From Paucidesulfovibrio gracilis DSM 16080 (GTDB lineage Bacteria; Desulfobacterota; Desulfovibrionia; Desulfovibrionales; Desulfovibrionaceae): DNA of 64,000 bases. Position 1 is the first letter of the stretch. Every line of letters starts with the position of its first letter. A program made the position numbers and the translations under genes. Positions 45,412 through 53,831 of the stretch are shown in pieces. The DNA lies in the NCBI RefSeq assembly GCF_900167125.1, contig NZ_FUYC01000004.1, positions 1 through 64,000 of the forward strand. Direction: 5' to 3'. Under the pieces are notes generated by a model. That model saw only the letters and a program-made list of their open reading frames with translations. It made no database searches and was not told the origin of the DNA.

Positions 45412-45840
45412 ATGCCGCAGGTTGCTGCACGAATCACCCACGATCAGGAAAAGTGGCTTAAGGAGTTCTTTAAAACAAAGAGCGCTGGGGCCGAGTTCAT
45501 CCTGCCGTGGGCGGTGGATGTTTTTTTTAAATGCATCCGCAATGTCTCCAACGATTTTTCCGTGGCGGAACTGAAGACGGTCCTGGAGGCCCATCGGGAC
45601 GTCAAGTTGTTGCCGAATCAATCCAAGCAGGCCTATTTGCTGCTTCGCCTTGGGGAAGCCTGCGATGAGCGCAGTGTTCACATTCAGCATGGAGCCAGTA
45701 AAAGCAATCTCGAAGTCAAGCTCCGCCGATTGAGCGATCTGCAGGCTACCGCCTTGATGATTTGGGCCACCGCCTACTGGACCAGTAAAAACTGGAACGG
45801 CGTGTCCCTGGACGAGTACGTCAAGCTTTCCTGCGGGTGA
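45412..45840 (+). CDS. Protein of unknown function after the MerR-like gene
   Basis: A 142-residue protein starting [20 protein letters not shown], mostly helical with no membrane segment. Further markers are [18 protein letters not shown] and [20 protein letters not shown]. The ATG at 45412 has GGAGGGGAG upstream; an ATG at 45385 would add nine residues. It lies 111 bases after the MerR-like gene and may be co-transcribed. The leading 'ARI...QEKWL' is reminiscent of small ribbon-helix-helix proteins, but this is not firm. Confidence 0.68.
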
Positions 45841-45950
45841 TCCCCCTCCTGATCGACTTTCCCCCGACGACTTTTCCTGCTATGCACCTTGCGGCGCGGC
45901 GACATCCGATTGGGTCGCTGCGTTTTCGACATGAAGTATCTGAGGTTGTA

Positions 45951-47315
45951 ATGAAACAGCTCCCACGCATTCTTACTATTGCAGGTTCCGACTCGGGCGG
46001 CGGCGCCGGAATCCAAGCCGACCTGAAGACCATCACCGCGCTTCAGTGTTACGGTCTTTCCGTCATTACGGCTCTTACGGCGCAGAACACCCTGGGGGTG
46101 GAGGGCATTCACGCCCCCCCAGCGTCCTTTGTGGCGACACAGCTCAAGACCGTGTTGACGGACATCGATGTGGCCGCCGCCAAGACCGGTATGCTTTTTT
46201 CTGCCTCCATCATGAAAGCGGTCTCTCCCTTTTTGCGCGAGGCGGCCTTTCCCGTGGTGGTGGATCCGGTATGCGTCAGCCAGAGCGGACACAAGCTTTT
46301 GGAGGATGACGCGGTGGAGGCCATGCGGGAATTTGTTTTTCCACATGCTGCGCTGCTTACCCCCAATATTCCCGAAGCGGAACTGTTCACGGGCATGACT
46401 ATTCGGACCCCCGAGGAGATTGCCGAGGCGGCGCGTCGACTCCTGGAGCAGGGACCGAAGGCTGTTTTGATCAAGGGAGGCCACGGAATGGACTCCGTCG
46501 CCTCCACAGACTGGTTTGCGCGTCCGGGGCATAAGCCGTTGCCCTTCATGCAGCGTCGAGTTGATACAAACAACAATCATGGAACGGGCTGCACGCTTTC
46601 TGCCGCCATTGCAACGTATGCAGGACAGGGGCTGGAAATGTCCCAGGCCGTTCGTGAGGCGCAACGGTATCTGAACCTTTGCCTTCGGGATGAAATTCAT
46701 GTGGGCAACGGAAGCGGACCGCCCAACCACCTTGCCCCTGTTTTGAAAGAAGGGCAGCGGTGGCCTGTGCTGCAGGAGTTGTCAACGGCTATGGAACGAT
46801 TGGCCGGTTTGCCCGGAGTGGAGCGTGTTATCCCCAAACAGGGACTCAACATGGCGTTGTCCATGCCGTTTTCCCGTGGATTTGAGGACGTGGCTACGTT
46901 GGACGCTCCTGTGTGTCGTTCCGCGGGGGGGCGCGTGTTTGCCCTGGGCCGTTCTGAATATGGGATCGAAAATGATGAGGCTGCGGTGCTCCTGTCCGTG
47001 CGGAAAGTACGCGAAGATGTGCGCTGTTGCCTGAGTTTGCGTCCCGGTGAAGATGTGCTTTCGGCTCTTGCTGCCATGGACGTCGTGCTGGCCCGCTTCG
47101 ACCGTGCTGATGCCCCGGCGACGCCGCAGCGGGCATGTGACGCGGCCTTGGAGTGGGGAGCCTATCATGCGTTGTCCAATCATAAAGCCGTGGATCGCGT
47201 TTCCGGTTTGGCGGACGGCGGAGCTTATGGTCTCGGAGGGCGTGTTTGCCTTTGGGCCGCCGCGCCGGGTATTCTGGTAAAAATGGTCGAAAAGTTGATT
47301 GGTTTGTTGAAATAA
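45951..47315 (+). CDS. thiD: Fused HMP-phosphate kinase / thiamine-phosphate synthase (ThiD-ThiN)
   Basis: A 454-residue fusion. Residues 1-265 are ThiD, with [32 protein letters not shown] and the catalytic [13 protein letters not shown]. Residues 280-454 match the ThiN domain ([40 protein letters not shown]). ThiN makes thiamine phosphate in organisms lacking ThiE, so one chain would supply pyrimidine diphosphate and couple it to thiazole. The ATG at 45951 follows TGAGG. No TPP riboswitch is seen upstream. The fusion is common in archaea and rarer in bacteria. Confidence 0.9.
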
Positions 47316-47399: not shown

Positions 47400-47483
47400 G
47401 CGAGAGTGGCGGAAGTGGTAGACGCACTGGATTTAGGATCCAGCGGCATAGCCGTGGGAGTTCGAGTCTCCCCTCTCGCACCA
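47400..47483 (+). tRNA. tRNA-Leu(UAG)
   Basis: The 84-base transcript has acceptor stem GCGAGAG/CTCTCGC, discriminator A and encoded CCA. The anticodon stem CTGGA/TCCAG holds loop TTTAGGA, giving anticodon UAG (CUN leucine codons). The variable arm GGCATAGCCGTGG and T-arm GTTCGAGTC are typical of class II leucine tRNAs. It lies 49 bases before tig, with no terminator between, so the two may share a transcript. Confidence 0.95.
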
Positions 47484-47532: not shown

Positions 47533-49152
47533 ATGAAATACGAAGTGAACGAATTGTCCCCGGTGAAGCGGGAAATTACTATCGAGGTTCCCGCTGAAGA
47601 GGTAAACGCCGCTCTGGGCGCCGCTATTGCCTTGTACAAACGTAACCATGAGGTTCGTGGATTCCGCAAGGGTAAAGCTCCGGCTTCCGTCATTGAGGGG
47701 AAGTTCCGCGCTCAGATTTACGGCGAGGCCACCACGGACCTGATCAACTACCATATCAATGAGATCATGGGTGAGTTGGGGGCGCAGCCTGTGTCCCGTA
47801 TTGACGTGGACGCTGAAGAGTTCGTTCGGGATGAGGACTTTCAGTACAAGATTTCTTTTGAAACCGCTCCCGATATCGATATCCCGGACTATGCCGCCTT
47901 TGAGGTGGAAAAGGAGACCGTGGAAATCGACGAGGCCGAGTTGACTGAGGTGGAGAAGCGCATCCTGGACAACGCCGCGGAAGTTAAGGTGTTGGAGGAA
48001 GTGCGCCCCGGTAAGGAAGGCGAGGTCGTTACTGTCAGCTTCGGTGCGTATGACGCCGAGGGAAAGGTTGTGGACGGCATCAAGGCCGAAAGTTTTGACC
48101 TTTCTCTGGGGCAGGGACAGGCTCTTGAAGAGTTTGAAGACCTGATCAAGACTCTGAAGCCCGGAGAAATGGGCCAGAAAGAGATCACCTTCCCCGAGGA
48201 TTTCATCAATACGAATATTGCCGGACGTACGTTGACCATGAAGGCCACGGTGCATGCGGTCAAGGAACGTGTCATTCCTGAAATGAGTGATGACGTGGCC
48301 AAAAAAGCCGGGTTCGAAAACCTCGAAACCATGCGTACCGCCATCCGTGAGTCGTATAAGGGCCAGCGTGAGCAGTTCGTCAAGAGCAAGGCGCAGAAGG
48401 AATTGTTGGATAAAATGCTGGCGGGCTTGGACTTTGAGCTGCCTCCCAGCATGGTTGCTGACCGTATTGATCGTTTGGTGGCGGACCTGGAGCAGCGTTT
48501 GGATCGTCAGGGCAAGAGCCTGAGCTCCACTGGAAAGTCTTTGGACGAGCTTCGCGAGGAGTACCGCGCCCAGGCCGAGGAAAGCGTGCGTGCGGAAATT
48601 TTCCTGCTTGCCGTGGCCCGCAAGGAATCCTTGGAAGTGACACCGCAGGAAATCGATATTGCCATCAGCCAGATGGCCATGCAGACGCAGCAGCCTTTCC
48701 ATAACCTGAAGCAGTACTATGAAGAGCAGGGACTGATTGTTCCCCTGCGGGATCGCCTCCTGGCGGATAAGGCGACGGATTTTATTTTCGACAACGCCAA
48801 GGTGACTGAAAAGGCGCCTGAAGCGGAAGAAAAAAAGCCCGCAAAAAAGCCTGCCGCCAAAAAGGCTGCGAAAAAGAGCGACGAGGAAGCTGAAGGCGAG
48901 AAAAAGCCTGCGAAAAAGGCTCCGGCCAAAAAAGCCGCTGCTAAAAAGCCTGCTGCCAAAAAGACGACCAAAAAGGCGGATGACGACGGAGAAGGCGAGA
49001 AGAAGCCCGCGAAAAAGGCTCCGGCCAAAAAAACGACGGCCAAGAAGGCCACGAAGAAGGCTGACGAGGGCGATGAGGCTGCGAAAAAGCCTGCCAAGAA
49101 GCCCGCTGCCAAGAAGACGGCCAAGAAGCCTGCCGCCGACGAGAAAGAATAA
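47533..49152 (+). CDS. tig: Trigger factor with long Lys/Ala/Pro tail
   Basis: A 539-residue ribosome-bound chaperone and prolyl isomerase. The ribosome-docking signature is VRGFRKGKAPASVIEG (about 36-51). The FKBP domain (about 150-245) has GKEGEVVTVSFGAYDAEGKV. The helical chaperone domain follows to about 425. Residues 426-539 are a Lys/Ala/Pro-rich tail of imperfect repeats such as KKPAKKAPAKK, interrupted by acidic DDDGEGE patches, much like a histone H1 tail. Ordinary trigger factors end near residue 430. GAGGAGGAAAG precedes the ATG. It heads the tig-clpP-clpX-lon order. Confidence 0.95.
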   Translation: MKYEVNELSPVKREITIEVPAEEVNAALGAAIALYKRNHEVRGFRKGKAPASVIEGKFRAQIYGEATTDLINYHINEIMGELGAQPVSRIDVDAEEFVRDEDFQYKISFETAPDIDIPDYAAFEVEKETVEIDEAELTEVEKRILDNAAEVKVLEEVRPGKEGEVVTVSFGAYDAEGKVVDGIKAESFDLSLGQGQALEEFEDLIKTLKPGEMGQKEITFPEDFINTNIAGRTLTMKATVHAVKERVIPEMSDDVAKKAGFENLETMRTAIRESYKGQREQFVKSKAQKELLDKMLAGLDFELPPSMVADRIDRLVADLEQRLDRQGKSLSSTGKSLDELREEYRAQAEESVRAEIFLLAVARKESLEVTPQEIDIAISQMAMQTQQPFHNLKQYYEEQGLIVPLRDRLLADKATDFIFDNAKVTEKAPEAEEKKPAKKPAAKKAAKKSDEEAEGEKKPAKKAPAKKAAAKKPAAKKTTKKADDDGEGEKKPAKKAPAKKTTAKKATKKADEGDEAAKKPAKKPAAKKTAKKPAADEKE

Positions 49153-49206
49153 CGAGGCGCTTGCTTCGCAGGGGAAAATGCCCCATCATGTCGACGTGAG
49201 CGTTGC

Positions 49207-49238
49207 ACCCGCCGTTCGCCCCCGGGTGGACGGCGGGT
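49207..49238 (+). terminator. GC hairpin between tig and clpP
   Basis: ACCCGCCGT at 49207-49215 pairs with ACGGCGGGT at 49230-49238. There is no T-tract, so it may attenuate or protect mRNA rather than terminate. It lies in the 137-base gap before clpP. Confidence 0.4.
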
Positions 49239-49289
49239 AATGTTTCAACGTCCGGATGCCGATACGTTACTATACCGCAAGGAGAGGCT

Positions 49290-49895
49290 ATGCCCAGCGT
49301 ACCCATCGTCATTGAGACCACCGGCCGCACAGAGCGTGCCTACGATATTTATTCGCGACTGCTCAAAGACCGCATCGTGTTGCTCGGCAGCGCCGTGGAC
49401 GATCATGTGGCCAGCCTGATATGTGCGCAGTTGCTCTTCTTGGAGTCGGAAGACCCGGAAAAAGAGATTTATATGTATATCAACTCCCCGGGCGGCTCCG
49501 TCACCGCGGGGTTGGCCATTTACGACACCATGCAATACATTTCCGCGCCTGTGGCGACCCTTTGCATGGGGCAGGCCGCAAGCATGGGTGCCCTGTTGCT
49601 TTGTGCGGGCGAGGCGGGAATGCGTTATGCCCTGCCTCACAGCCGGATCTTGATCCACCAGCCTCTGGGCGGTGCTCAGGGGCAGGCCACGGATATTGAT
49701 ATCCAGGCCCGTGAAATTCTTCGTTTGCGTGAAGACCTGAATCAGATTCTCAGCAAGCATAGCGGCCAGGATCTTTCCAAGATTGCTCTAGACACGGAGC
49801 GTGATTATTTTATGGGTGCTGAGGAGGCCAAAGAGTATGGCATCATCGACAGCATCATGGCGTCTCGGGGAACTACGCTGAAAGAAAGCGAATAA
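49290..49895 (+). CDS. clpP: ATP-dependent Clp protease, proteolytic subunit
   Basis: A 201-residue serine protease forming the two-ring barrel that degrades unfolded and tagged proteins. The catalytic Ser is in [14 protein letters not shown], the His in [15 protein letters not shown] and the Asp in [12 protein letters not shown]. The oxyanion [17 protein letters not shown] is intact. AAGGAGAGG precedes the ATG at 49290; longer frames upstream cross the hairpin. clpX follows, so the ClpXP pair is adjacent. Confidence 0.97.
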
Positions 49896-50017
49896 GCTTT
49901 TTTGAAGATGCGCTTGATTCGGCGCGACGCCTGAAGCCCCTCGCGCCCTCCGACCCGTTTTTGACGGGCGAAGTAAAACGTGGGGGGCGCCATCCCGACA
50001 CAACACATGGAGCATTC

Positions 50018-51265
50018 ATGAGTAAAAACACAGGTACGGACGAGTTGCGCTGTTCCTTTTGCAGCAAGTCGCAAAACGAGGTCCAAAGGCTGATTGCCGG
50101 ACCAAGCGTCTATATCTGCGACGAGTGCGTGGGACTGTGCAATGAAATCATAGCCCAGGAAATCATGCACGGCGGCATGGAAGAGGGGCGGCTACTCTCT
50201 CCAATGGAGATTCGCGATTCGCTTGATCAGTATGTTATCGGTCAGGAGCAGGCCAAGAAGATCCTGTCCGTGGCCGTGCATAACCACTACAAGCGGGTGT
50301 TCTACGCTTCCACGGCTGGCAAGGATGATGTGGAACTGGACAAATCCAACATTTTGCTCATCGGTCCCACGGGGTCGGGCAAAACGCTCTTGGCCCAGAC
50401 CCTGGCCCGGGTGCTGAAGGTGCCGTTTGCCATTGCCGACGCCACAACGCTCACCGAAGCTGGATATGTGGGCGAGGATGTGGAAAATATCCTGGTTCAG
50501 CTGCTTCAGAATGCGGATTACGATATTGAAGCTGCTTCTCGCGGCATTATCTATGTTGATGAAATTGATAAGATTTCCCGCAAAGGTGACAGCCCGTCCA
50601 TTACCCGAGACGTTTCTGGTGAGGGGGTGCAGCAGGCACTCTTGAAGATTATCGAGGGTACCGAGGCCAATATTCCTCCCAAGGGTGGCCGGAAGCATCC
50701 GCAGCAGGAATTCATTCGGCTCGATACTTCCAATATTCTGTTCATTCTTGGCGGGGCGTTTATTGGTCTGGAGAGTATCGTCCAGCAGCGGCTGCAAGGT
50801 TCGGCCATGGGCTTCGGCGCCAAGGTGGATGTGAAGGTGAGCGCCACGGACAGCGAACTGTTCTCAAAAACCGAACCCAACGATCTCGTCAAGTTCGGCC
50901 TGATTCCAGAATTTGTCGGCCGAGTTCCGGTGATCACTTCGTTGGAGGAATTGACCGAAGACGACCTGGTTCGCATCCTGGTGGAGCCGCGGAACGCCCT
51001 CACCAAGCAGTACCAAAAGCTGTTCAGCCTGGACAACGTGAATTTACGGTTTACGGATAACGCGCTCAAGGCCATTGCCGTCCGCGCCGTGGATCGGAAA
51101 ACCGGGGCGCGTGGCCTGCGGAACGTCCTGGAAAGCGTGATGATGGATATCATGTACTCGCTTCCGTCCAAGGAGGGCGTCAAGGAGTGCGTGATCAACC
51201 GGGGCGTTGTTGAGGAAGGCAAGGAACCCCTGCTTTTGTATCAACAGGAAGTGAAAAGCGCGTAA
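50018..51265 (+). CDS. clpX: ClpX ATPase, specificity subunit of ClpXP
   Basis: A 415-residue AAA+ unfoldase. The N-terminal zinc domain is [11 protein letters not shown] with [10 protein letters not shown]. Walker A is [14 protein letters not shown], Walker B is [11 protein letters not shown], and sensor/arginine-finger blocks are in [10 protein letters not shown]. The C-terminal lid has [15 protein letters not shown]. It feeds substrates to ClpP. GGAG lies upstream of the ATG at 50018. The 122-base gap after clpP holds no clear terminator. Confidence 0.97.
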
Positions 51266-51374: not shown

Positions 51375-53831
51375 ATGCCGAAATTCGGTTTCGACTCGAA
51401 GGATTCCCCCATCGACTTCGTTACCCTGCCCATGATGAGCCTGCGCGAAGTGGTGATGTTTCCCCGGTCCATCGTCCCCTTGTTTGTGGGGCGCGAGGCG
51501 TCGGTGAAGGCCATTGAAAGTGCGCTGGCCAATTTTGACAAAAAAATATTTCTGGTGACCCAGCGGGCACCGGAAAAAGAAAAACCCGAGCCGGGCGATC
51601 TCTACGAGGTCGGCACGGTGAGTAAGATTCTTCAGATGCTGCGGCTTCCCGACGGTACCATTAAGGTGCTTTTCGAGGGGCTGTACCGCGGACGATGGGA
51701 TCCCACAACCAATGTGGTGTCCCCGGAAGACGAATATTCCATGGCCCGGGTGGAACGGATCCCCGAGCAGACCGCTGAGGGATCCGAGGCCGACGCCTTG
51801 GTGCGGGCCGTGCATGAGGGGCTGGATAGCTTTGGCGAGGCCAATTCCAAGGTCGCTCCGGAAGCGGTTTCCGCCATGTCCGGCATAAATGAGCCAGGTC
51901 AGTTGGCCGACTCCATCATGCCGCATCTGCGTGTGGATTTCCGCCAGAAGCAGGAAGTGTTGGAAACGCTTCCTCCGCATGAACGCCTGGAACGCACTTA
52001 TGAAATGCTGCTGGGCGAGGTGGAGATTGCCACCATTGAAAAGCGGGTCAAGGGTCGCGTCAAAGACCAGATGGAAAAAAATCAGCGGGATTATTATCTG
52101 AACGAGCAGATCAAGGCCATCAACAAAGAGATGGGCCGAGAGGATGATCCCGTTGCCGAAGCTGCAGAGCTGGAAGAGCGGCTCGGCAAGAAAAAAATGA
52201 GCGATGAGAACCGCGAGCGGGTCATGCGCGAAGTGAAAAAACTTCGTACCATGCAGCCCAGTTCTGCGGAATATACGGTCTTGCGCAACTATGTCGATTG
52301 GGTTCTGGATTTGCCCTGGGGCGAACTCAAGCAAACCAACGTGGCCATAGATAAGGCGCGAACCATCCTGGACGAGGATCATTTCGGCCTGGAGAAACCC
52401 AAGGAGCGCATCCTTGAGTATCTGGCCGTGCAAAATCTTGTGGAGACCATCAAGGGACCGATCCTCTGCCTGGTCGGGCCTCCCGGTGTCGGTAAAACCT
52501 CCATTGCCCGGTCCATTGCCCGCGCTACGGAGCGCGAGTTCGTCCGGCTTTCTCTTGGCGGTGTTCGTGATGAGGCTGAAATCCGCGGCCACCGACGCAC
52601 GTATGTGGGGGCGCTTCCCGGCAAGATCATTCAGTCTCTGCGCCGCTGCTCTTTCAACAATCCTGTGCTCTGTCTGGACGAAGTGGATAAGATGAGCACG
52701 GACTTTCGTGGGGATCCCTCTTCGGCATTGCTGGAGGTGCTGGACCCTGAGCAGAACGCCACGTTCAACGATCATTATCTGGATCTGGATTATGATCTTT
52801 CCAAGGTGTTCTTCATCACCACGGCCAATACGCTGGAATCCATTCCGCTGCCGTTGCAGGATCGCATGGAAATTATCCGTTTGCCCGGATATCTGGAAAC
52901 CGAGAAACGCGAAATCGGCCGGCGTTTTCTGTTGCCCAAGCAGCTGGAACAACACGGGTTGGCCATGGAAAACCTGGACCTTCCCGATGATGCGTTGGTG
53001 GAAGTCATCCGAACCTACACCAGAGAGGCCGGTGTGCGAAATCTTGAGCGGGAGATCGCTTCGATTTGTCGCAAAACGGCCATGCGCATCGTTGAAGCGG
53101 ACGACAAGCAGATGCAGGTCGCTTTGAATGCATCCGGTCTGGAGGATTTCTTGGGAATTCCTCGGTTCCGTCATGGAGAGCGTGAAAAGGCTCCCGGCGT
53201 GGGCGTTTCAACCGGACTCGCATGGACCCAGATGGGGGGCGAGCTGCTGATGGTGGAGACGGCACTTATGCCCGGCAAGGGCAAGGTGGTCATTACCGGC
53301 AAGCTGGGGGACGTCATGCAGGAATCGGCCAAGGCCGCTATTTCCTATATTCGTTCCCGTTCGGATTTATTTGGCTTGAAACGTGATTTCCACCAGGATG
53401 TGGATATTCACGTTCACGTTCCCGAGGGGGCGACTCCCAAGGATGGCCCGTCCGCCGGTATTACTCTGGCCACGTCCGTTGTCTCGGCGCTGTTGAACAT
53501 CCCTGTGCGTCACGATTTGGCCATGACAGGGGAAATCACCCTCCGTGGAAGCGTGTTGCCTATCGGCGGCCTTCGCGAAAAATTGCTGGCTGCACATAGG
53601 GGACGGATCAAGACCGTGTTGATCCCCAAGGATAACGAGAAGGATCTTCGTGACGTGCCTCAGGAGATCAAGGACGATCTGACCATTCTGCCCATGGAGA
53701 ATATGGACGAGGTGCTTGAGCAGGCTCTGGTCTGTGAGAGTGCGGATGCGATTTTCTGTGGGCGGGGCAAGTCAGCGGAACCCATCGCCAATTTGCTGCT
53801 CAAGGAGCCGCAGTTGGAGCGTCCGCACTGA
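51375..53831 (+). CDS. lon: Lon ATP-dependent protease
   Basis: An 818-residue protease. The N-terminal substrate domain starts [20 protein letters not shown]. Walker A is [15 protein letters not shown] (near residue 370). Lon landmarks include [20 protein letters not shown] and LDEVDKM. The protease domain has the catalytic Ser in [11 protein letters not shown] (near 692) and Lys in [27 protein letters not shown] precedes the ATG. It follows clpX by 109 bases and ends in a terminator. Confidence 0.97.

Follow-up and report, generated by a model that had tools for sequence, protein, structure and literature searches.

The window (the whole 64,000-nucleotide stretch of DNA analysed here) includes the tig gene for trigger factor, a single unbroken open reading frame that extends from an ATG at 47533 to a TAA at 49150–49152 and specifies 539 amino acids (Table 1). 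A tRNA-Leu gene precedes tig, and clpP, clpX and lon follow it in the setting shared with trigger factor genes of bacteria. The same surroundings on both sides of tig are present in the near relative L002. A ThiD-ThiN fusion (phosphomethylpyrimidine kinase plus thiamine-phosphate synthase; 45837–47315, forward strand) is located upstream of the tRNA-Leu gene.

Table 1. Features at the tig locus and examples of small C-terminal domains in relatives; positions are those of the window unless a locus is named.
Feature	Coordinates	Strand	Evidence or remark
tRNA-Leu, upstream of tig	47400..47483	+	context
tig, trigger factor with tail, 539 amino acids	47533..49152	+	ORF, Pfam, TIGR00115, 1w26 alignment
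GFRKGKA, residues 43–49, intact	47659..47679	+	sequence
Tail, residues 427–539, four basic K/A/P blocks with acidic breaks	48811..49149	+	sequence, shuffles, AlphaFold
Tandem unit of 99 bases, 2.1 copies, 83% matches	48831..49032	+	TRF
clpP, downstream	49203..49895	+	ORF listed from TTG; in-frame ATG at 49290 may be the start
clpX, downstream	49961..51265	+	context
lon, downstream	51375..53831	+	context
g37 domain, example	L028:2848-2976	+	plus 21 other g37 loci
g19 domain, different, 42 residues, includes TKGGTPFKTEGAAKSRLKAL	L157:894-1019	-	also L166

Trigger factor commonly is regarded as a chaperone of three domains that binds the ribosome weakly and in cycles. Residues 1–426 of the tig product constitute a complete trigger factor: the Pfam domains Trigger_N (residues 1–140, 121.5 bits), FKBP_C (161–240, 30.1 bits) and Trigger_C (264–419, 106 bits) follow each other in this order with scores above their cut-offs, and the TIGR00115 equivalog model yielded 325 bits against a cut-off of 180. 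The three domains in order above curated cut-offs, together with TIGR00115, place the protein among the trigger factors. Its sequence also contains GFRKGK, the ribosome-docking signature that we take as defining for trigger factor, and the GFRKGKA segment is presumably the L23-binding loop by which the chaperone docks, as judged from the Escherichia coli protein. The three ordered domains and the docking signature are shared with E. coli trigger factor (1w26), to which residues 8–429 align. However, the E. coli chain of 432 residues stops ten residues past the aligned part, whereas the tig product has 113 extra.

The tail is composed of 40 K, 31 A, 13 E, 11 P, 7 D, 6 T, 4 G and 1 S and lacks Met, with a net charge of +20 (40 K versus 20 D+E). 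The acidic breaks SDEEAEGE, ADDDGEGE and ADEGDEAA separate the four basic blocks, and ADEKE is present at the end. The charges are segregated more strongly (0.120) than when the same residues are shuffled (0.068 ± 0.018), and only 0.7% of 1000 shuffles reach the observed value. AlphaFold confidence with a six-sequence alignment (pLDDT in blocks of ten) was 73–91 over residues 1–430 and 30–39 beyond, because of which the tail is most likely disordered. The repeat in the tail is real, though not very young: the two 33-codon copies differ at 5–6 synonymous and 8 non-synonymous codons. The third base of the lysine and alanine codons varies, which provides weak evidence of upkeep of the protein. 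The original prediction of a complete trigger factor followed by an in-frame Lys/Ala/Pro tail with acidic breaks is borne out by these data, and its repeat unit, given as near KKPAKKAPAKK, is present twice as that exact string.

Tail length, which the original prediction had singled out for comparison among relatives, is 113 (window), 86 and 56 amino acids within the genus, whose three genomes all have a basic tail. More widely, a search with the trigger factor core matched 269 of the 288 family genomes. The C-termini were read at 95 loci, 90 among the matches listed in the family genomes and five others; L001, L007, L008, L009 and L011 were dropped from the count as repeats of the same proteins, and G242, one of the 34 listed places in genus g37, was left out. 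The trigger factor proteins of L002 and G002 are identical. A basic tail was defined in this analysis as one with at least six K+R that account for at least 17% of the tail. By this rule the 95 C-termini comprise 31 basic tails, 24 small domains of two kinds and 40 with neither. Among the sequences read, basic tails occur in six genera of the family (g1, 3; g4, 3; g15, 1; g25, 12; g28, 1; g37, 11), and vary in sequence and length with the charge kept. All five sequences read from genus g34 have only 9 residues past position 426. The L040 tail (G221:C15) departs from the K/A/P frame about midway and ends arginine-rich with the K/A/P pattern continuing in another frame, reflecting either a sequencing error or a real frameshift.

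Tails of the same type occur in the single-contig genomes G219, G228 and G254 of another genus. Because of these and the 86- and 56-residue tails of the congeners, an assembly error in the repeat region, which the original prediction had named as its possible undoing, is very unlikely as the origin of the tail and was set aside. The notion of a recent expansion, also part of that prediction, is retained to the extent that the lengths differ among congeners, but not against basic tails in six genera. With 31 of the 95 C-termini basic-tailed, 24 ending in a small domain and 40 in neither, the tail, as far as these sequences indicate, characterizes a lineage and varies in length within it, instead of stemming from a single expansion.

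A quick tree of the trigger factor core (SH-aLRT support only) needs three changes between tail-or-domain and neither, and five when four states are distinguished. Tail-less g34 and g27 sit inside or next to the tailed clade. The tree has long end branches, including those of sequences from g27, g7 and g31, and therefore the number of tail losses is unsure. Among 395 genomes sampled from the phylum, 57 matched a profile of the trigger factor end plus tail at E ≤ 1e-8, and the window's genome was the only one to match positions 1–136 of the 137 in the profile. The match in G389 was rejected as a trigger factor as it covers the tail part alone (52–133) in a short open frame of 83 residues. The sample includes 17 family genomes, the window's own among them, and tests the edges of the family poorly as the tailed genera are represented by g1 and g25 only.

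A second type of C-terminus emerged in the relatives. In 22 of the 36 genomes of genus g37, trigger factor ends in a conserved domain of 40–43 residues with the consensus FAxKAEAVEWAVANLGIKESTAKGYSLAKLQERADKF. When used as a query, the domain matched 22 of the 288 family genomes in one copy each, always at the end of trigger factor, and the preceding linker is K/A/P-like in some of the sequences only. On the core tree the domain requires one change and is nested among K/A/P-tailed relatives, with a branch support of only 45. The extensions that bear it are near neutral overall (net −7 to +4), which argues against positive charge by itself being what is conserved. A different domain follows a K/A/P linker in both genomes of genus g19 (2 of 288 family genomes). 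Neither domain had a Pfam match at E ≤ 10; the g37 domain also had none in NCBIfam and only chance-level similarity to PDB sequences (best E 0.18), and was not found in the 395 phylum genomes, a sample that includes none of the known carriers. The two small C-terminal domains apparently are undescribed, and may have replaced or supplemented whatever the bare tail does.

The distribution of similar motifs on other proteins also was assessed. In the window's genome the DNA pattern for KK[A/P]AKK occurs five times, all within the tig tail, and the tail as a protein query recovered only itself at E ≤ 1. A genome-wide K/A/P habit was set aside accordingly, with tig as the sole place recovered by a single DNA pattern and a single protein query. 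Across the family, DNA coding for KKAPAKK gave 116 matches in 62 of 288 genomes compared to three for a reversed control pattern. By position, 46 of the 116 sites, in 20 of the 62 genomes, fall in tig, a count that has no trigger factor place for 21 genomes; inspection by eye of the loci in 20 of these 21 (G276 left out) assigned them to proteins other than trigger factor. Outside tig the motif occurs in bL17, at places consistent with a Pfam search, and by eye also in Lon, IF-2, UbiE-like and other proteins. On this evidence K/A/P tails are found on several unrelated proteins of the family, and the motifs therefore need not be ribosome-specific.

The bL17 protein is located near the tunnel exit. 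Long K/A/P tails with acidic stretches are borne by bL17 in many relatives (L181, L184, L188, L195, L198, L207 and others), in the same style as that of the tig product and also on a ribosome-linked protein. In contrast to these, bL17 of the window's genome, identified by Pfam, has no such tail and ends GEAVEEKAAEA; L22, L23, L24 and L29 of this genome, assigned by gene order, likewise have no such tails. The lengths of trigger factor and bL17 tails are uncoupled (Spearman −0.21, p 0.27, 29 of 30 genomes, G259 missing). L17 is among the proteins tested in PMC8556260.

The tail might have little specific function: a disordered, free C-terminus could tolerate a repeat of low complexity as it expands and contracts. 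The scatter of lengths among congeners, the mid-tail departure of L040 from the K/A/P frame, the 40 of 95 C-termini without tail or domain, and the K/A/P motifs on unrelated family proteins would fit with this explanation. Nevertheless, the basic character is maintained in six genera and the tree needs just three changes between tail-or-domain and neither. The block pattern also exceeds that of shuffles at the 5% level, without correction for multiple tests, in 13 of the 31 basic-tailed sequences (those of the window, both congeners and ten others), but not in the remaining 18. Overall, a tail of little function is considered rather unlikely.

The tail also had been described as histone-H1-like. 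The description is apt for composition and predicted disorder, as the chain is Lys/Ala/Pro-rich like the disordered C-termini of AlgP (AlgR3), PhaF and the NF038053 and Hc2 proteins. It is not apt for family membership, which was rejected: the tig product scored 24.8 bits with NCBIfam hist_H1_lk_Burk (NF038053; cut-off 80) and 6.6 bits with Hc2 (NF038052; cut-off 135), and the relative L039 scored 30.3 with Pfam HC2 (cut-off 40). Moreover, unlike AlgP, PhaF and the H1-like proteins, the carrier is a chaperone and the acidic breaks are regular. A tail that binds DNA or mRNA would link the chaperone to the nucleoid or to translation coupled with transcription, the role proposed for the K/P/A tails of AlgP and PhaF. 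The resemblance to the KPAA domain of AlgP, the binding of DNA by KPAA peptides in vitro (extracts of PMC9239181) and the sub-threshold similarity to H1-like models point in this direction, whereas the unreached family cut-offs and the acidic breaks, which should weaken affinity for DNA, make such a role clearly unlikely. The extracts of PMC9239181 also describe association of AlgP, which has a similar tail, with polyphosphate granules, and altered granule spacing when AlgP is without its C-terminus. By analogy, the tail could bind polyphosphate, through which trigger factor would be recruited or regulated under stress, which we regard as highly improbable.

The proteins YidC, Oxa1 and Alb3, which work with ribosomes, provide a different precedent, as each has a positively charged extension at its C-terminus (extracts of PMC8733628); the trigger factor tail similarly is a long, positive extension that is predicted to be disordered. 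The basic C-termini of these proteins help to bind the ribosome, and the partner of the Alb3 C-terminus is an acidic extension of uL4c with charge, not sequence, seemingly conserved (extracts of PMC8733628). The likeness has bounds: YidC, Oxa1 and Alb3 are membrane insertases with measured binding, whereas ribosome binding by the trigger factor tail is predicted, and the basic motifs in Alb3 are short clusters instead of K/A/P repeats. No such tail on trigger factor was noted in the titles and abstract openings of the open-access literature.

Avidity is suggested by the intact docking signature together with 113 residues of flexible polycation. Thus, the reading that we favor, tentatively and with a probability of roughly 0.4, is that the tail may act as a flexible polycationic second tether that strengthens the hold of trigger factor on the ribosome. 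The N-domain would dock as usual via the GFRKGK loop, and the tail would make low-specificity contacts with the negative surface near the tunnel exit, including rRNA and acidic protein ends, that would raise affinity or residence time, with the acidic breaks curbing its overall stickiness. We infer in this scheme that the tail is produced, that it contacts the ribosome and that it affects residence. In support of a second tether, the trigger factor is complete with GFRKGK intact, the charge character is kept across six genera while sequence and length change, and the confinement of KK[A/P]AKK to tig (5 of 5) speaks against a genome-wide habit in the species. In addition, the outer surface of the ribosome is termed highly negative in extracts of PMC8556260.

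Other observations weigh against a second tether. Net charge is stated to change contacts between nascent chains and the ribosome little (extracts of PMC8556260). Positive charge is dispensable in the 22 of 36 g37 genomes with near-neutral, domain-ended extensions (net −7 to +4), and the five g34 sequences have only 9 residues past position 426. K/A/P motifs are borne by unrelated proteins in other genera, no more than 13 of the 31 sequences with a basic tail have charge blocks that surpass shuffles at the 5% level, and the lengths of the trigger factor and bL17 tails are uncorrelated. The tail instead might act on clients, either by catching acidic nascent chains or as a solubilizing bristle that widens the reach of the chaperone. 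It is highly charged and predicted to be disordered, and the disordered C-terminus of the chaperone DnaK affects fitness (extracts of PMC7918210), but we judge a role with clients to be improbable.

A broader and doubtful extension of the tether proposal is that the trigger factor C-terminus of this family is an evolving docking port. In some lineages long polycations with charge blocks would have arisen from a short basic tail, and in others this tail would have become a linker for two unrelated small domains (22 genomes of one genus and both of another), all of which would provide an extra attachment at the ribosome or a partner that is absent in the E. coli protein. The relatives with no, short, long or domain-added tails constitute a ready natural series on tunnel-exit residence versus folding, and the same series could show whether disordered polycations tune that residence. 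The interest of the system is raised further by the two domains, apparently undescribed, that relatives have at this position of trigger factor.

Two minor features of the tail DNA also were observed. The reverse strand opposite the tail bears a 163-codon open frame (48717–49208), rich in F, A, S and G, which mirrors the lysine and alanine codons and probably is not a gene. The heptamer A AAA AAG, a known −1 slippery sequence, occurs in frame at 48831–48837 and 48843–48849, where the tail starts. Past these sites the −1 frame soon reaches a stop and, therefore, slippage would yield a short-tailed form. As an A AAA AAG or A AAA AAA site is present in just 4 of 54 other tailed or domain-bearing sequences, the heptamers probably are due to chance.
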